This document shows positions 272 to 8,391 of a stretch of 50,569 nucleotides of DNA, in pieces; within the stretch, counting starts at the first letter, position 1; every line of letters starts with the position of its first letter. Made by a program: the position numbers and the translations under genes. Below the pieces are notes generated by a model. The model was given only the letters and a program-made list of their open reading frames with translations. It did no database searches and had not been told where the DNA came from. This DNA is from an uncultured Porphyromonadaceae bacterium (GTDB taxonomy: Bacteria > Bacteroidota > Bacteroidia > Bacteroidales > Muribaculaceae), in contig CAMWNB010000012.1 in the NCBI GenBank assembly GCA_947175495.1, forward strand, positions 1 to 50,569, given 5' to 3'.

Positions 272-284
272 CTCTTAACAAGAG
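272..284. repeat. Left inverted repeat of a candidate invertible promoter
   Basis: CTCTTAACAAGAG at 272-284 recurs as its exact reverse complement CTCTTGTTAAGAG at 456-468. Each copy is itself a dyad (CTCTT/AAGAG) with an asymmetric centre, AAC in one and GTT in the other. That is how short tyrosine-recombinase core sites are often built. The two copies bracket 171 bp holding promoter-like sequence. Only 13 bp match, and the flanks differ. Confidence 0.5.
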
Positions 285-455: not shown

Positions 456-468
456 CTCTTGTTAAGAG
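456..468. repeat. Right inverted repeat of a candidate invertible promoter, within a larger dyad
   Basis: CTCTTGTTAAGAG at 456-468 is the reverse complement of the copy at 272-284. Here it is embedded in a further dyad: GGCACTCT at 450-457 pairs with AGAGTGCC at 465-472 across a 7-nt loop. The transcript would carry this as an 8-bp hairpin just after the predicted start of the regulator mRNA. It could therefore serve as a recombination site in DNA, as a leader hairpin in RNA, or both. Confidence 0.5.
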
Positions 469-538: not shown

Positions 539-575
539 TTCTCTCTTTTTTAGCGTGATGCTGAAAAAGAGAGAA
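539..575 (+). promoter_or_regulatory. Long leader hairpin upstream of the capsule regulator
   Basis: Bases 539-554 pair with 560-575 to give a 16-bp stem with one G-U pair and a 5-nt loop (GTGAT). It ends 57 bases before the ATG at 633. No U-tract follows, so it is not a simple terminator. The loop-side strand contains TAGCGTG, which is also found in the ops element that recruits the NusG paralogue RfaH in enterobacteria. The match is only 7 bases and may be chance. A pause or recruitment site for the antiterminator encoded just downstream is a plausible reading. Confidence 0.5.
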
Positions 576-632
576 GAGGAAGTGTGCATATCGTTCGATG
601 TTTTATGATTTTTGTTAATTGTTGCAAGTGCA

Positions 633-2060
633 ATGAATCAGCGGTTTAGTCGAGCTTTGTTTGTGGAATATGTCGAAAGTGAAGTTGCTGCTCTCCGGTC
701 TGACTTGTTGACATCGACCGCGGCAAACTCCTTGTTGACCTCCATGCGCGCCCATGGCTACACTGAGATTACCAAGGATTCTCTCCGCATGTGGATTGTG
801 GATATGACACTCAACAATCTGAAAATCTCTACTCGCAAGAAATACTTCAGTCGGGTACATACTATCTATCGAGGGTGGAAGAGCGTTCCGGGAGAGAATC
901 CGTTTGAAGCTGTCAAAGATGCTATCAGCTTCGATTTCCAATGTACCGATAAAGAAGCAAATGCAAATCTCGGACTTCTTGACCGGATTGTCGGTCCTTC
1001 AAAAAAGGAAGTTGATAAAGAATGTAATAATTTGTTTCTCTATCTATTTTATAACCCGATGGCTACGATGGGCGATGTCATCAATCTAAAATTTGATGAC
1101 TATAATGTTGATTGTCCTCAGATAGACGAAATTATTGAAGAACAGAAGGAGATAAGCCGCCGAAGTACAAATGTGTTTGGGCTTGGGCGTGGTCGCAAAA
1201 GAGAACCGCAGATTATGCGCGATACTCTGTCGGAGTTGGGCTCCATTGCCAAGTTGGCAGGTATGCGTTTTACAGGAACATTCTCTCGCGATTCAATTAT
1301 TGCTATGTGGATTGCTGCTGCTTTAAAAGCCGCAGTCCCGGTTGCCGACATAAGGGCTGTTATTTCTTCCGTGCCGGCTGAATATTCGTCCTTATGTCTT
1401 GTTCCTGTTGTACCGATTTCCGACGCAAGAAAAAGTGAGATTATCCGGCAGGTAGCTGACTCGGTCAACAATAAACCTCGCCAATGGTTCGTGATGAAGA
1501 TGCGTTCCGGTCAGACTCCCGAGGCCATTAAGGATAGGATTAAAGCCACAACGGATGGCCTGCTTGATACGATGTTGTTTTATTATCCTACACATACGGT
1601 CTTAAGGAAAAATGCCAAAGGCAAAAGTGTCAGAAAAGAAGTGCCATATCTTCCCGGAATCTTGTTTTTCAAGATTTGCCGGAATAAAGTTCCACTGCTG
1701 ATGAGCCGTATTGGCGAATTGGCATGGTGCTATAAATACACAAATGCTATTGACCGGGATTACTGCACAATCTCACGCAATGAGATGAAAGCGTTTCAGC
1801 ACAGTATCGGAGAGTTTACTCCCGATATTGAGATGGGACTTGAAGTAAGGGAGGAACCATTGGGAGAAGGCACGGTTGTGAAAATCAACGGAGGAGGCCG
1901 AATGGTCGGTATGGAAGCAAAGATTGAGAGCGTTAAAAATATTAATGGCACAAGGACATATACGCTAAGCCTGACAAATTATTTGCAGGCCAAATGGACT
2001 GTTAAAGATGTGGAGGAAATCTACATTGCCCCGGTTGAGCATGGCGTAGAAGTTTCTTGA
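633..2060 (+). CDS. Fusion of a tyrosine-recombinase-like domain with an UpxY/NusG-like antiterminator
   Basis: This 475-residue protein probably controls transcription of the capsule operon. The C-terminal part is NusG-like: an NGN domain at about 284-400, beginning QWFVMKM and containing PYLPGILFFKI, and a KOW-like domain at about 421-470 (GTVVKINGGGRMVGMEAKI). This matches UpxY antiterminators, which start Bacteroidales capsule operons. The N-terminal 270 residues look like a core-binding plus catalytic tyrosine recombinase fold. They are degenerate: the first catalytic Arg region reads PMATMGDVINLKFDDY, the H-x-x-R-H box reads T-x-x-R-D at 216-220, and the Gly-His reads Ser-Ser. Catalysis looks unlikely and DNA binding possible. 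I chose ATG 633 because the upstream in-frame TTG at 612 is a poor start. The recombinase relation is inferred from pattern; the NusG relation is firmer. No UpxZ-like gene follows. Confidence 0.75.
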   Translation: MNQRFSRALFVEYVESEVAALRSDLLTSTAANSLLTSMRAHGYTEITKDSLRMWIVDMTLNNLKISTRKKYFSRVHTIYRGWKSVPGENPFEAVKDAISFDFQCTDKEANANLGLLDRIVGPSKKEVDKECNNLFLYLFYNPMATMGDVINLKFDDYNVDCPQIDEIIEEQKEISRRSTNVFGLGRGRKREPQIMRDTLSELGSIAKLAGMRFTGTFSRDSIIAMWIAAALKAAVPVADIRAVISSVPAEYSSLCLVPVVPISDARKSEIIRQVADSVNNKPRQWFVMKMRSGQTPEAIKDRIKATTDGLLDTMLFYYPTHTVLRKNAKGKSVRKEVPYLPGILFFKICRNKVPLLMSRIGELAWCYKYTNAIDRDYCTISRNEMKAFQHSIGEFTPDIEMGLEVREEPLGEGTVVKINGGGRMVGMEAKIESVKNINGTRTYTLSLTNYLQAKWTVKDVEEIYIAPVEHGVEVS

Positions 2061-2234: not shown

Positions 2235-3071
2235 ATGCGCATAAAATTCTTTGCAACAGCAACTTTGTCGGTGGCATTGTTGCTGGGGTCATGCTCTACG
2301 CCCAAAAATATCAATTACTTTCAAGATGTACATTCTGGCACAGTGATAGCTCCGGCCAAACAGCTCGACATCAAGGTGAAACCGGAAGACAAGTTGTCGA
2401 TTATTGTAACCGCTCAAGATCCGGCACTGTCGCAACTGTTCAACCTTGTTTCTACGCAAAACCGGCTTGGAGGCACAACAAGCACGACATCACAGGTTGG
2501 AAATATGGGCGATTCCGGTAGCGGTCAAATGGCTTATTACACAGTCAATCGCATGGGCGATATAGACTTTCCTGTGCTTGGCGAGCTCCATGTGGCCGGC
2601 ATGAATCGATATGAAGTGGCCGACTACATCAAGCAACGTCTCAGCGAGCGTGATCTTGTGAAAAATCCGATTGTTACGGTAGAGTTTGCCAATACCGGCA
2701 TATCAATCATCGGTGAAGTTGCGGCCCCGGGCCGATATGAGTTCAACAAAGACCAGATGACGATTGTTGATGCCATAGCAATGGCCGGTGATCTGAAAAT
2801 CAATGCAGCGCGAAGTAATATACTTGTTATGCGTAAGAACTCCGATGGCAAGCAGGAAGGCTTCCGAATTGACCTGACCGATATGCATAGCCTTGCGAAC
2901 TCGCCGGCATATTATCTACAACAGGACGATGTGATTTATGTAGAGCCCAATGACAAGTTGAAAAGAGAGACAACACCTAACGGCAACACGCCCTATACCC
3001 CGGCGTTTTGGGTGTCAATGGGGTCTTTTGCAATGACAATTGCCACGCTTGTCATCACCCTTACAAAATAA
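2235..3071 (+). CDS. Wza-type polysaccharide export lipoprotein
   Basis: The 278-residue protein has a lipoprotein signal (LLLGSC, lipidated Cys20), a polysaccharide export domain at about 40-150 (VKPEDKLSIIV; GDIDFPVLGELHVAG) and an SLBB-like domain at about 153-235 (GEVAAPGRYEF). It ends in a hydrophobic segment at about 254-277. Proteins of this family form the outer-membrane exit channel for capsular polysaccharide and pair with a Wzc-type protein, encoded 41 bases downstream. It is shorter than E. coli Wza, as is usual in Bacteroidales, where one SLBB domain is often found. The C-terminal hydrophobic segment fits an outer-membrane-spanning helix. No promoter is seen in front, so it is probably read from the regulator promoter. 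Confidence 0.9.
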   Translation: MRIKFFATATLSVALLLGSCSTPKNINYFQDVHSGTVIAPAKQLDIKVKPEDKLSIIVTAQDPALSQLFNLVSTQNRLGGTTSTTSQVGNMGDSGSGQMAYYTVNRMGDIDFPVLGELHVAGMNRYEVADYIKQRLSERDLVKNPIVTVEFANTGISIIGEVAAPGRYEFNKDQMTIVDAIAMAGDLKINAARSNILVMRKNSDGKQEGFRIDLTDMHSLANSPAYYLQQDDVIYVEPNDKLKRETTPNGNTPYTPAFWVSMGSFAMTIATLVITLTK

Positions 3072-3112: not shown

Positions 3113-5539
3113 ATGGCTGAGTCGAAACAGAAATTGAGCAATAAAAAAGCGAGCTATGCCAATGGTTCCGTGCCATTGAGCGATATATTCTTCATGACAC
3201 TGCGCCATTGGCCATGGGTGTTGCTGTCTGTGGCGATATGCGTGGGCGGTGCATACTTTTATCTTCTCCGTACGCCTGACGTTTATACAAGATCGGCGGA
3301 AATTCTTATCAAGGATGACAGTAAAGGCGGTTCCGCAGCCGCAGATGAATTTGCCGATTTTGGTCTCTTCCACAGCAATACAAATATTCAGGATGAAATG
3401 ACCAATCTGAAGGCTATTGACTTGATGGAAGAGGTCGTAAAACGTCTCGGACTTGATGTAAACTATTACAAAGCCGGACGTTTTCGCGACGAGATTGCTT
3501 ATGGGTTTGATCTCCCCGTGAAATTGACAATGGCGAATTTTCCTTCTGAAAATAGTCTTTCCTTGACACTGGAAGTGTCAGGTGATGGAAAAGTCGCTAT
3601 CTCCAAATTGAACGCGTCAGGAACAGCGCAGGACAATAAGAAATACACAGGTAATATTAATGACTCCATCACGACACCGGTAGGTAAGATTGTCGTGTCT
3701 CCGACGATTGCATATCAAGAAGGTGTTCCCATAAATCTGGATGTCCGTAAAGAGCCCATTTCGGCTGCTGTCGGTTCTTATAACGGACGTTTGGGCGTAA
3801 GTATGGCAAATGACAAAGGCCGTGTAATCAAACTCACGATGTCTGACCGGTCAATCCAGCGAGCCGATGAGATTCTTGCCACTCTCATAAATGTCTATAA
3901 TGAAAACTGGATTCGCGACAGGAATCAGATTGCGGTTTCTACTTCAAATTTCATCAACGACCGTCTCGGCGTTATCGAAGGAGAACTTGGAAATGTAGAC
4001 TCGGACATTTCATCATATAAATCTGCCAATCTTATACCCGATGTCGATGTGGCGGCATCAATGTATATGAGCCAGAGCCAGCAGAACCAAGCAGCTATGC
4101 TTGAGGTTAATAACCAGTTGCAGATGGCACGCTACATACGTTCATATCTTACCGCGGACGGCAACCGCGATCAACTGCTTCCAGCCAATACCGGACTTCA
4201 AGGCGGCAATGTGCAGAGCCTGATTGGTGAGTACAATGATAAGATGCTTCAGCGCAATTCATTACTCGCCAAGTCTTCGTTGGAGAATCCTCTCGTGCAG
4301 CAACTTGACGAACAGCTTTCGGCACAGCGTCAGGCAATAATTCGTTTTATTGACAACGAGATTGTAGCTCTAAACACACAGCTTAAAGGCATACGCGGCA
4401 GTGAGGCGGCTACCGTTTCAAAGCTTGCTTCCAATCCTACTCAGGCAAGAAACCTTCTTTCAGTGGAGCGTCAGCAGAAAGTAAAGGAGTCTCTCTATCT
4501 CTTCCTGCTTCAGAAAAGAGAGGAAAATGAACTTTCACAGGCATTTACAGCCTATAACACGCGAATTGTAAACCGTCCGCATGGCGCGGGAGTTCCACCG
4601 ACACCCAATCGCCGCAATATACTATCTATGGCTTTTCTGATTGGTCTTGCAATACCTTTCGGCTTTATGTATATCAAGGAAACACTCAACACAAAGGTGC
4701 GCGGACGCAAAGATGTGGAAGATCTTCAGGCTCCCTTCCTTGGCGAAATTCCCTTGTATGAGGGCAACAGAGAAAAAGGAAAGTTTGGTCGCGAAACATA
4801 CATAAAGGCGATCGTTGTAAAGTCCGGCAGGCGCGACGTTATCAACGAGGCATTCCGAGTTCTTCGCACTAATCTTGAGTTTATGAAGATTCACAAGGAT
4901 GAAGCCGATGTGATTGCACTTACATCATTCAACCCCGGCTCAGGCAAATCGTTCTTGACAATGAATCTCGCTGTAGCAATTGCTCTTAATAATCAGAAAG
5001 TGCTTGTGATTGATGGCGATATGCGCCACGGTTCATCGTCCGCATACATTGATTCTCCCGAAACCGGTCTGTCGGACGTGCTCACGAATAAGGTGGCCAA
5101 CGTGTCTGATGCGATCGTACGCGACAAAGAGTTGCCGATGCTTGCGGTTCTGCCTATTGGCACTGTGCCTCCAAATCCGACGGAGCTTCTGAAAACCAAA
5201 CGCTTTACCGATGTTATGGGTGAATTGCGCAAGCAGTATGACTATATCCTTGTGGATTGTCCGCCTATTGAGGTGGTTGCAGATGCCCAGATTATCGACA
5301 AACATGCCGACCGTACGATTTTCGTGCTCCGCGCAGGATTTCTCGAACGTTCCATGTTGCCGCAGGTTGACAAACTCTACAACGAGGAAAAGTACAAGAA
5401 CATGTGCATCATTCTCAATGGTACAAGCAATGCACATGGACGATATGGTTACTCCCATTCCTACAAATATGGTTATGGCTATGGTTACGGCTATGGCTAT
5501 AATTACGGCAACGACAAATCAAATTCCAAAAAGGGTTGA
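3113..5539 (+). CDS. Wzc-type chain-length determinant / tyrosine autokinase
   Basis: This 808-residue inner-membrane protein has the full Wzc layout: Wzz-like transmembrane helix at about 33-53, long periplasmic region with coiled coils, second helix at about 500-520, and a cytoplasmic BY-kinase domain. Kinase motifs are visible: Walker A NPGSGKS near 605-611, Walker A' VLVIDGDMRHG near 630-640, Walker B ILVDCPP near 711-717. The tail at about 776-800 is a run of alternating Tyr and Gly, the cluster that is autophosphorylated in this family. It sets chain length and works with the Wza-like protein just upstream to control export. A separate phosphatase (Wzb) is not present in the window. The Tyr/Gly tail is encoded by short tandem repeats in multiples of six bases, so copy change would keep the frame. 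Confidence 0.95.
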   Translation: MAESKQKLSNKKASYANGSVPLSDIFFMTLRHWPWVLLSVAICVGGAYFYLLRTPDVYTRSAEILIKDDSKGGSAAADEFADFGLFHSNTNIQDEMTNLKAIDLMEEVVKRLGLDVNYYKAGRFRDEIAYGFDLPVKLTMANFPSENSLSLTLEVSGDGKVAISKLNASGTAQDNKKYTGNINDSITTPVGKIVVSPTIAYQEGVPINLDVRKEPISAAVGSYNGRLGVSMANDKGRVIKLTMSDRSIQRADEILATLINVYNENWIRDRNQIAVSTSNFINDRLGVIEGELGNVDSDISSYKSANLIPDVDVAASMYMSQSQQNQAAMLEVNNQLQMARYIRSYLTADGNRDQLLPANTGLQGGNVQSLIGEYNDKMLQRNSLLAKSSLENPLVQQLDEQLSAQRQAIIRFIDNEIVALNTQLKGIRGSEAATVSKLASNPTQARNLLSVERQQKVKESLYLFLLQKREENELSQAFTAYNTRIVNRPHGAGVPPTPNRRNILSMAFLIGLAIPFGFMYIKETLNTKVRGRKDVEDLQAPFLGEIPLYEGNREKGKFGRETYIKAIVVKSGRRDVINEAFRVLRTNLEFMKIHKDEADVIALTSFNPGSGKSFLTMNLAVAIALNNQKVLVIDGDMRHGSSSAYIDSPETGLSDVLTNKVANVSDAIVRDKELPMLAVLPIGTVPPNPTELLKTKRFTDVMGELRKQYDYILVDCPPIEVVADAQIIDKHADRTIFVLRAGFLERSMLPQVDKLYNEEKYKNMCIILNGTSNAHGRYGYSHSYKYGYGYGYGYGYNYGNDKSNSKKG

Positions 5540-5650: not shown

Positions 5651-7213
5651 ATGAATCCTAATACAAGAGTTGCCGTCAATGCGATGGCTACATATGGAAG
5701 AACCGTGCTCCGTATGGGACTTGGTCTTTTCTCAAGCCGATGGGTGCTGGAATCCCTCGGAGAAGTAGACTATGGTCTTATGGGCGTAGTGGGAAGTCTC
5801 ATCGTAATGGTTACTTTCCTGAACACGGTTGTGACCGGTGCATGTGCCCGCTTCTTTGCATTTTCCATTGGAAAAAATGATGTTGAAGATTTGCGTAAAT
5901 GGTTTAATACCGGACTCTCTGTCCATCTTATTCTTGCAGTGGTACTTGTGGGAAGTCTGGGCCCGGTCGGAGAGTGGGCGATAGACAATTTTCTGAATAT
6001 CCCTTCCGATCGACTGGTGGCTGCGCATTGGGTGTTTCGCTTCTCTTTGGTCAGTGCCTTTTGGTCGATGATTTCAACTCCTTATATGGCAATGTATACT
6101 GCTACACAAAATATAGCGGAGCTTACTCTATGGGAGATCACGTATATTCTTGTGAATTTTGTATTCGTCTATTGGCTTACGACCTATACAGGAGATGCCT
6201 GGCTGATGTATGCAGGGTTCTCTGTCTTCATCACGTTGCTGCTCGGCATTGGGCAGGCCGTCAGAGCAAGATGCGCATTTCTCGGTTGTCACATTAACTT
6301 CACCTATTGGGGAGATTGGAAAAGGATTAACGAAATGTTCTCATTCTCCGGATGGTCGTTATTCGGTAGCCTTGGATATATGGCTCGCGCACAATTCCCC
6401 TCGATTCTGCTGAATCAGTTTTTTAATCCACTTCGCTTTGCATTTGTGAATGCTTCATACCAGGTGGGCGGAGCGCTGGCAGGTTATACGCAGAGTATGT
6501 CGAATTCTCTGATGGGAGCTTTCACTCCTCAAATCACCACATTGGCAGGAGCTGATGACCAAAAAGGAATGGTGACAACTTCATTTCGAGCCTCGAAGTT
6601 CGGCACATTCTTGACTTTGTTGTTTGCTGTACCTGTGTTTATAGAAGCCGACTATCTTCTCGTTCTGTGGCTTAAAGAGCCGCCATTGATGGCGGCTTCA
6701 TTCTGCAGACTGGTGCTGTTGCAGGCAATTCTTGACAATCTGACATTCGGCAATATGTCTGGAATCATGGCAAGTGGGCGCATTAAGTGGTATCAGATTA
6801 CTACCGGAACAATTTGCGTACTCAGTATTCCGTTGGCATGGCTGTTTTTAGAAATGGGCGGTGGTCCTTTGATGGTTGGATGGGCCCTTACCATTGGGGT
6901 CCTGGCCAATAGTATCGCAAGACTCTTCTTTGGCAGAGCAATTCTTGGAATTGGAATTCGACAATGGACGGGAAATATCCTGCTTCCAATATTGATGATA
7001 ATAGCTGCTTCGGCTGCCGTTGGCTGCATCGTGACAGCTGCGATAACAGTGCCGTCACTTTTGCGCATATGCATTACAACTTTGGCATGTGTGTCGGTAA
7101 TGTCAGGTATTGCGTGGTTCAAATTACTCAGTATGGTGGAACGTAACGCTATAACTCATATTTTCGACAAATTCATTTGTGGGATAAAAACTCGAATCTT
7201 CTGTTGGCGATGA
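5651..7213 (+). CDS. wzx: Wzx-type polysaccharide flippase
   Basis: The 520-residue protein is almost wholly hydrophobic, with about 12-14 predicted membrane segments, and fits the polysaccharide-biosynthesis flippase (MOP/MATE-like) family. Typical family features are the N-terminal amphipathic start leading to SSRWVLESLGEVDYGLMG and an Arg/Lys-rich cytosolic loop after the sixth segment. It would flip the undecaprenyl-linked repeat unit across the inner membrane for the Wzy-like polymerase at 18663. Its stop overlaps the start of the next gene by 4 bases (ATGA at 7210-7213), indicating translational coupling. Assignment is by topology and context, as this family has few fixed motifs. Confidence 0.85.
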   Translation: MNPNTRVAVNAMATYGRTVLRMGLGLFSSRWVLESLGEVDYGLMGVVGSLIVMVTFLNTVVTGACARFFAFSIGKNDVEDLRKWFNTGLSVHLILAVVLVGSLGPVGEWAIDNFLNIPSDRLVAAHWVFRFSLVSAFWSMISTPYMAMYTATQNIAELTLWEITYILVNFVFVYWLTTYTGDAWLMYAGFSVFITLLLGIGQAVRARCAFLGCHINFTYWGDWKRINEMFSFSGWSLFGSLGYMARAQFPSILLNQFFNPLRFAFVNASYQVGGALAGYTQSMSNSLMGAFTPQITTLAGADDQKGMVTTSFRASKFGTFLTLLFAVPVFIEADYLLVLWLKEPPLMAASFCRLVLLQAILDNLTFGNMSGIMASGRIKWYQITTGTICVLSIPLAWLFLEMGGGPLMVGWALTIGVLANSIARLFFGRAILGIGIRQWTGNILLPILMIIAASAAVGCIVTAAITVPSLLRICITTLACVSVMSGIAWFKLLSMVERNAITHIFDKFICGIKTRIFCWR

Positions 7214-8391
7214 ACTATACTTACTATTCAGACGATATAGAAAGTAAGGAACAGCTGAAATATTCCGCATCGCTCAATCGTTTTGTAGAAGAACCTCAGC
7301 TTGGAGTTAAATTGCTGGACAGGGCAATTATTGTGCCCTCGGTTGGTGTATACCATAACGGCGGCATCTGCCCCGAGTCGTTTTGGGGAGGTGTTGTGGA
7401 CAAGGACCTCAGGTTTGACGAGAGCTCAAACGAGTTTTTAGAAGACAATTCTGAAGTATATTATTTGGGTACATTTCACCACTGTTGGGGGCATGAAATC
7501 ACCGATGGTATGCGTCTTCTGTGGGGACTGTTGCCTGAACTTGGAGGTGTTCCGCTGAGTGACAATGTGAAATATGTCTATTCGCTTTGCGGTGATGGCT
7601 ATGCGCTGCCCGAAAACTTCATGATGTTGCTTGAGGCGCTCGGAGTAGACTTGGACAGGCTTGTAAGAGTGGATACACCAACGCGGTTTAAGAAAGTTTA
7701 TTTGGCAGATGAATCGTATTGGTATGACATTGCCTCAGAAACAAAGCGTACTTTCGGCGAGACTTTCCGGCAACTCTACGAAATCTTGTGCAGTAAAGTT
7801 GTTGCTGAAAGAAAAGAACCTACGAGGACTGTATATCTCAGCCGTTCCGGGTGGCAAAAGGGTAATCCCGACTATGGAGAGGCCACGATAGAACGAACAT
7901 TTGTGGAGAAAATGAAATGTGAGGTGTTCCGTCCCGAGAATCTTTCATTTATAGAAATGGTGGAATTGTTGCAGGAAACAAAAACACTCATTGCCACCGA
8001 GGGTTCGATTTCACATAATGCTCTGTTTCTTCAGCCAGGTACCAGGCTTATTATTCTGCGCAAGGCGGGCTTTATCAGCTACTATCAGCTCATGATCAAC
8101 CAGTTGAAAGAGCTGGATGTTACATATATCGATGCTCACCGCACTCACCATTTCACTGATCCGGCATGTCCTTACTATGGGCCGTTTTTTCTTGTGCTCA
8201 ACAAGTCGCTTGCAGAGTTCTTGGGTGTAAAGCCACGGTTCCCGTTTATGGAATATGTGAGTTATCGAGGAGAGGTTTTCCGGCGCAGAGTCCGCCGCAT
8301 CGTCTTTCCCGTTTTGGCAAAAACCAAGCGCAGGCTCACTTCATTGATACAAAAAAACAGGAGAGTTGCGGATAGTGTCGCAGACTGTTGA
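7210..8391 (+). CDS. Glycosyltransferase family 61 (DUF563-like)
   Basis: This 393-residue cytosolic protein resembles GT61/DUF563 glycosyltransferases. Family-like motifs are FHHCWGHEITDGMRLLWGL near residue 88 and a C-terminal nucleotide-sugar-binding-like stretch EGSISHNALFLQPG near 264. The ATG at 7210 overlaps the flippase stop, which supports this start over an in-frame upstream codon at 7177 inside the flippase gene. The donor and acceptor sugars cannot be told from the sequence. A second, diverged member of the family is encoded at 11873, with the matching pattern INHWGHFLVETLARLWYL. Confidence 0.8.
   Translation: MNYTYYSDDIESKEQLKYSASLNRFVEEPQLGVKLLDRAIIVPSVGVYHNGGICPESFWGGVVDKDLRFDESSNEFLEDNSEVYYLGTFHHCWGHEITDGMRLLWGLLPELGGVPLSDNVKYVYSLCGDGYALPENFMMLLEALGVDLDRLVRVDTPTRFKKVYLADESYWYDIASETKRTFGETFRQLYEILCSKVVAERKEPTRTVYLSRSGWQKGNPDYGEATIERTFVEKMKCEVFRPENLSFIEMVELLQETKTLIATEGSISHNALFLQPGTRLIILRKAGFISYYQLMINQLKELDVTYIDAHRTHHFTDPACPYYGPFFLVLNKSLAEFLGVKPRFPFMEYVSYRGEVFRRRVRRIVFPVLAKTKRRLTSLIQKNRRVADSVADC

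Follow-up and report, generated by a model that had tools for sequence, protein, structure and literature searches.

The gene at positions 633–2060 of the window, as we call the whole 50,569-nt stretch of DNA analysed here, encodes a protein in which a UpxY/NusG antiterminator half follows a half derived from a recombinase. The interpretation we favor, with moderate confidence, is that it encodes a UpxY-type capsule antiterminator whose N-terminal module, a dead tyrosine recombinase, works in a scheme of promoter switching and docking. The gene occupies a single uninterrupted frame of 475 codons with an ATG start on the plus strand, and its assignment draws on the open frame, profile matches and the predicted fold. 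In profile–profile comparison, residues 9–251 aligned with tyrosine recombinases (E 1.3e-20, versus 0.035 or worse for the controls), and the predicted structure contains the core-binding and catalytic domain fold of these enzymes. The tyrosine-recombinase layout proposed for the N-terminal half in the initial annotation was thereby borne out, including by the structure check, which asked whether this half is unrelated to recombinases and returned a recombinase-like fold. The core-binding (SAM-like) domain spans positions 654–947 on the plus strand (approximately residues 8–105, with a border set by eye; Pfam matches to this domain were found in relatives only). It is followed on the same strand by a degenerate catalytic domain without a recombinase active site (948–1472, approximately residues 106–280). 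The fused-family profile also matched, over its N-half alone, frames of 312–460 aa that are presumed to be recombinases (best 4.4e-28); these came from 16 genomes among 295 of the order, the host genome not counted.

The C-terminal half has a NusG/UpxY fold over residues 281–468, with an NGN domain (1473–1817, plus strand; residues 281–395) preceding a KOW domain (1851–2042, plus strand; residues 407–470), the order expected of UpxY antiterminators. UpxY proteins usually have 170–200 residues, and the 36 unfused relatives used here have 141–237; the length of about 475 residues that had been singled out is indeed that of the window protein and is accounted for by the second, recombinase-derived half. 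The UpxY profile NF033644 gave the window protein 44.6 bits, under its curated cut-off of 100 bits. All 40 aligned members of the fused family matched the profile at E <=0.001, and a 483-codon frame that the window protein hits in G057 scored 106.6 bits, above the cut-off. The profile match and the fold together upheld the UpxY-like character of the C-terminal NGN and KOW domains.

Comparison with 31 recombinase rows indicated that the catalytic apparatus has been lost in the aligned fused proteins. Tyrosine was present at the nucleophile column in 30 recombinase rows, the remaining one being a gap; it was found in none of 40 fused rows of alignment A6 and none of 28 rows of alignment A1, one of them a gap, the two alignments having genes in common. 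The window protein has Cys255 at this column, which was reached by an ungapped extension four columns past the point where the profile alignment stops, on the assumption that no gap intervenes. The stretch containing the lysine β hairpin is also shortened: the spacing between its landmarks is 45–46 in the recombinase rows and shorter in 40 of 40 fused proteins (median 29.5, maximum 41 in L076). Recombinase rows kept K264 and R337-H338 in all 31 cases and, except for one gapped row, G359-H360 and Y369. Among the four residues R, H, H and Y, none was retained in 31 of the 40 A6 rows and one in the other 9; in A1, none was retained in 20 of 28 rows, one in 7 and two in a single row (L016). The missing nucleophile, the shortened lysine hairpin and the lost R-H and Gly-His positions rule out a working recombinase. 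These tallies agree with the early claim that most active-site positions are replaced, and its reading of Ser-Ser for Gly-His was correct. Its reading of T-x-x-R-D as the counterpart of H-x-x-R-H was in the wrong register; that motif sits four residues ahead of the aligned R-H position, where the residues are I-A.

The recombinase half is no longer catalytic, yet sequence comparison suggests that it still serves some purpose. Thirteen gene pairs were compared for dN/dS, of which the N-half was measurable in six, the C-half in six and both in five; the remaining pairs were saturated, and several measurable ones have a synonymous divergence above 1.5, so that the ratios are rough. The N-half gave 0.14 for the window gene and its paralog, 0.11, 0.08, 0.10 and 0.16 in other pairs, and 0.52 in a diverged pair, and the C-half gave 0.03, 0.01, 0.04, 0.12 and 0.34 in the five shared pairs and 0.07 in the sixth. 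The N-half is clearly constrained by purifying selection and evolves faster than the C-half. Five of its six ratios lie between 0.08 and 0.16, and both N-half domains are retained in many divergent members, which makes it highly improbable that the recombinase half is useless debris of the fusion hitch-hiking with the antiterminator. That reading would draw on the constraint being weaker in the N-half than in the C-half in all five pairs measurable for both, and on the absence of parts of the catalytic domain from some members: L025, L031 and L071 lack much of it, and L032/L075 have the core-binding part only.

The N-half carries little net charge (median of 67 proteins +1, pI 7.6, versus +17, pI 9.9 in the 31 recombinase rows), and the median in the window protein's own clade of 14 is −2.5. 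Docking of this half on DNA is therefore disfavored. Loss of charge while fold and selection persist speaks for a scaffold without DNA binding, in which the N-half would hold dimers, prevent the KOW domain from acting before the protein loads, or attach to RNA polymerase or some other factor; the heavy losses tolerated by the truncated members above point the same way. We regard such a scaffold as a realistic minority reading. It offers no obvious use for the basic core-binding helix of the window protein (residues 61–86), which has a net charge of +7, compared with +1 to +5 in the 13 other clade members.

The fused arrangement is common among relatives. A search of 198 genomes sampled from the host family detected relatives of the window protein in 42, and frames of at least 400 aa were found at 38 places in 32 genomes, a number counted by hand from 48 rows, not every one of which was inspected residue by residue; the other 10 places are shorter and represent unfused UpxY, shortened members or contig ends. 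In a second, partly overlapping collection, a frame of at least 400 aa was present at 48 of 54 loci. Records in this collection are mostly labelled Muribaculaceae, Porphyromonadaceae or Bacteroidales; the names Alistipes, Rikenellaceae, Bacteroides and Clostridiales also occur as submitters' labels. Carriers of the gene include Duncaniella muris DSM 103720 (L051) and Muribaculaceae Isolate-110. Relatives with both halves are thus single open frames, and the two sets of long frames rule out two genes joined by an assembly error, the alternative raised when a homologue search was proposed. A single-protein scan of genome contigs returned no relatives, nor did a scan of viral contigs with alignment A3.

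In a tree of the C-half, 67 fused and 36 unfused proteins were split by one branch (99/84; one change). Nine fused proteins were excluded because they miss a landmark, are too short or contain unknown residues, as were 10 duplicates, and four rows fell in no group. The simplest reading of this tree is one old fusion event, which is probable rather than proven, since the unfused rows were selected (mostly the best UpxY scorers), the bootstrap is unsettled and the root is not safe, the NusG row being too long. Unusually long fused members were also noted (L068, 717 aa; L070, 624 aa; L058, 558 aa), and L058 and L070 have strong hairpins approximately 130 nt upstream of the start. A different long NusG-like protein of 355 aa (L036:1339-2406, in G000:C4) has its extra part at the C terminus and adjoins a PHP-type phosphatase-like gene, named by eye; further long NusG-like forms occur in L133 (357 aa) and L157 (343 aa).

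In the window, the fused gene is followed on the plus strand by genes for a polysaccharide export protein (Poly_export and SLBB domains; 2235–3071), a Wzc-like chain-length regulator (GNVR and AAA_31; 3113–5539) and a family-61 glycosyltransferase (longest open frame with a putative start; 7177–8391), so the fused gene heads a capsule-type locus, as had been proposed. Between the fused and export genes, terminator-like matches lie on both strands at 2126–2218, which perhaps hint at a second control point. The frames next downstream of the fused gene in the 54 loci included Polysacc_synt (8), Polysacc_synt_3 (7) and Poly_export (4) among the best 25 of 56 families, in a scan that covered 62 of 66 same-strand frames after four short ones were dropped; sugar aminotransferases and epimerases lie downstream of several fused genes. 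Many fused genes, not all, head polysaccharide loci.

The exceptions include nine loci (L077, L078 and L083–L089) that are close to the window protein. There the fused gene stands alone, for example at L085:5857-7311, with its flanking genes on the opposite strand wherever the sides are readable. A rhamnogalacturonan lyase of family 11 is encoded upstream in six of the nine, GH88 and GH106 pectin enzymes downstream in seven, and an ECF-type sigma factor gene in three, some contigs ending too early to show all neighbors. No polysaccharide operon was seen behind the fused gene in this group. These nine loci are not accounted for by an antiterminator that acts on a capsule operon in cis alone; the fused gene of the pectin cluster must act in trans or on itself, and a trans-acting offshoot is likely.

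Upstream of the window gene lies an apparent invertible promoter. Its left arm, CTCTTAACAAGAG (272–284, plus strand), and right arm, CTCTTGTTAAGAG (456–468, plus strand), match at 13 of 13 nt as inverted repeats. They are separated by 171 nt, the presumed invertible segment (285–455), and lie 164–361 bp upstream of the gene; this agrees with the inverton layout of inverted repeats that flank a promoter and are 100–300 bp apart. The consensus of the Bacteroidetes −7 box is TAnnTTTG. It is matched by TAACTTTG at 433–440 on the plus strand and a second time by TATATTTG at 413–420. TAnnTTTG boxes begin 22–35 nt inside one arm, and in the window the box is directed at the gene, that is, in the ON orientation. 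Among 16 distinct segments from different loci, scored without a shuffle control, eight were ON, five OFF and three boxless. Perfect pairs of the repeat core CTCTTNNNAAGAG were found upstream of fused genes at 15 of 70 non-redundant loci (shuffle expectation 0.0); the center triplet of the repeats varies between many loci and is reverse-complementary within each of the 15. Paired cores with a gap of 158–188 occurred in 92 of 397 genomes of the family and the reversed control pattern in one. From this site structure the region 272–468 would be an invertible promoter, with flipping expected from the arrangement of its repeats.

The initial annotation had proposed that a DNA-binding recombinase module could tether the antiterminator to its own locus; in this reading the dead half would bind the inverted repeats or nearby promoter sequence. 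Within the 2.34-Mb host genome (90 contigs) the core CTCTTNNNAAGAG occurs at three places, all upstream of fused genes, and the reversed control pattern at two; the third place lies approximately 180 bp upstream of a fused paralog with 70% identity, whose second arm may sit past the contig end. This restriction of the motif, the position of the arms close to the gene, the basic core-binding helix and the reference-family recombinases that adjoin such sites are in keeping with a tether. The loss of charge from the N-half speaks against it, as do the perfect core pairs before only 15 of 70 loci and the presence of the same motif at two loci of the genome and before unfused upxY genes. Locus specificity through repeat binding is hardly possible because the motif is common to the window locus and its paralog. 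The core repeat pair was, moreover, not found in the seven of the nine pectin-cluster loci with enough upstream sequence, conserved relatives in which no polysaccharide operon was seen either. Tethering to its own locus is thus possible but weakened, and we consider it unlikely.

Sites of this type were examined at 29 loci, of which 13 have a UpxY-type frame, 6 a separate reference-family recombinase nearby and 16 either. The 13 UpxY-type frames comprise six of ordinary length, two of 343–357 aa and five of at least 390 aa, three of the latter being known fused genes. At 13 of the 29 CTCTTNNNAAGAG-type sites (L131–L159), the sequence examined contained no UpxY-type frame and no recombinase. 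The obvious candidate invertase for the window promoter would be a reference-family recombinase encoded elsewhere in the same genome (G000:C9:34007-35173). The initial annotation placed a separate recombinase gene before upxY in many Bacteroides capsule loci; such neighbors exist in the host family, where a recombinase is followed by upxY on the same strand within 0.8 kb at eight places (among the rows listed, in G008, G012, G037, G038, G041, G042, G046 and G056). At a ninth place, in G042, the recombinase is only a short piece. At L147:3-3019, an intact-looking recombinase, an invertible-promoter site and an ordinary upxY are followed, 9 bases past upxY, by a second recombinase-like frame that contains a core-binding part and runs off the contig. 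L147 presents the parts of the fused gene in unfused form.

A recombinase gene is not always directly upstream of a fused gene; this was seen on the same strand at only 3 of 86 loci, a total of 32 and 54 in which several genes are counted twice and many have less than 1.5 kb of upstream sequence. In all three (L021, L026 and L062) the repeat pair separates the recombinase gene from the fused gene, and in L051 a recombinase is more distant and on the opposite strand. This arrangement, together with the descent of the dead half from enzymes of the likely invertase's kind, would suit a governor of inversion, in which the dead half, by competing with the active invertase for the repeats or forming mixed complexes with it there, fixes the promoter orientation, so that ON stays ON. 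We find this doubtful, more so than the tether. There is no perfect core pair at 55 of 70 non-redundant loci, and no recombinase directly upstream at the other 83 of the 86, with upstream sequence often short. The charge loss again counts against repeat binding, and in the nine-locus group, where the seven testable loci had no core pairs, both gene pairs measured indicate purifying selection on the N-half.

Between promoter and gene, the leader contains a hairpin at 539–575 on the plus strand (arms 539–554 and 560–575). The RNA fold of 505–632 had a z score of −3.65, and the 17 pairs of the hairpin were equalled in none of 200 shuffles. Leaders of the paralog (−4.50), L007 (−2.96) and L008 (−1.82) gave negative z scores as well; those of L004 (−0.38), L006 (−0.52) and L005 (+1.27) folded no better than shuffles. 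The purine-rich 3′ end of the element, GAGAGAAGAGGAAGTGTGCAT (569–589, plus strand), was matched by eye to GGGGGAAGAGAAGGTATGTG in relatives, many of which close the 3′ arm with a G-run followed by AAG..GTATGTG or TCGG. A motif picked after inspecting the leaders, GGGG(AA|TC), occurred before 25 of 69 fused genes in sense and 2 in antisense (shuffle mean 3.1, maximum 7 in 100 rounds). Before the 36 unfused upxY genes it was at background (sense 3, antisense 4, shuffle mean 1.9). The motif is absent from the leaders of the window gene, the paralog and L006, whose versions were matched by eye. Because the loops are too divergent for an alignment of leader DNA, pairing of the 3′ arm with an upstream arm was counted in 28 leaders, the 25 with the motif plus these three. 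This gave 231 pairs, whereas 200 shuffles averaged 185 and never exceeded 205, and individual leaders fell below 0.05 in 6 of 28, the window among them. Since the motif is enriched before fused genes and at background before unfused ones, at least some of the fused genes seem to possess a leader signal peculiar to them.

Taken together, the interpretation we favor, a UpxY-type antiterminator with a dead recombinase module, would operate in four steps. A separate active tyrosine recombinase would invert the promoter at 272–468, whose site structure is observed. With the promoter facing the gene, the leader would be transcribed, and its hairpin and purine tail would mark the transcript, an element with statistical support in part of the family. 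The NGN domain would then load on RNA polymerase and render it termination-resistant across the long capsule operon, as known for UpxY action. In the fourth and weakest step, the dead half would serve as a docking module that brings the protein to the right transcription complex through its basic core-binding helix, protein contacts or both, without cutting DNA. We rate such docking, whether it relies on nucleic acid or on protein, as the most likely role of this half, with a pure scaffold close behind. Counting against the whole are the presence of GGGG(AA|TC) in only 25 of 69 leaders, the window's not among them, and the L004–L006 leaders, which are unstructured beyond shuffles. More speculatively, and in our judgment improbably, a dead invertase may have turned into a targeting half, so that one protein reads both the switch sites (or the enzyme acting on them) and the departing RNA polymerase; promoter orientation and antitermination would then form one self-reinforcing switch, and the pectin offshoot would act in trans in the manner of RfaH.

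UpxY proteins are reported to prevent transcription from ending too early in the untranslated leader of the operon that encodes them (PMC7315117, PMC7819879). Enrichment of UpxY genes and tyrosine-type invertases near invertons (PMC11892184) and the presence of integrases within capsule clusters of P. distasonis (PMC9409006) are also reported. The window gene resembles the UpxY antiterminators of Bacteroides capsule loci (NF033644) in its NGN and KOW domains, its place as first gene of a capsule operon, its apparently invertible promoter and its leader. It differs in the extra recombinase-derived half of its 475-aa protein, in a score below the family cut-off, and in the leader motif, which is frequent in fused relatives and at background before the unfused genes. 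With Bacteroidota tyrosine recombinases and promoter invertases (the L096/L098 integrase family) it shares the domain layout and the profile similarity given above, and some genes of that family adjoin the same CTCTTNNNAAGAG sites. Unlike them, it lacks the nucleophile tyrosine, the full lysine hairpin, R-H and Gly-His, and has an antiterminator attached. For RfaH, LoaP and other NusG paralogs, a recombinase domain goes unmentioned in the portions consulted of PMC7593976 and PMC7819879, the latter describing an extra domain of another kind in NusG of T. maritima. Plant ALOG regulators, according to an excerpt of PMC3537659, likewise reuse the DNA-binding domain of a tyrosine recombinase in regulators, but these are plant proteins with the N-terminal domain only and no antiterminator. 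Among the matches listed from the open-access literature, no title or abstract opening named a fusion of UpxY/NusG with a recombinase, and none described experimental work on the window protein or its relatives.

A separable domain that was added to UpxY and kept under selection after loss of the enzyme activity provides a direct handle on operon choice by UpxY, and its halves can be swapped between paralogs of one genome. To our knowledge, how each UpxY selects its own capsule operon is not settled. The fused family would also show, as is uncommon in bacteria, a tyrosine recombinase put to new use in regulation, and this at the loci where these enzymes act as switches.
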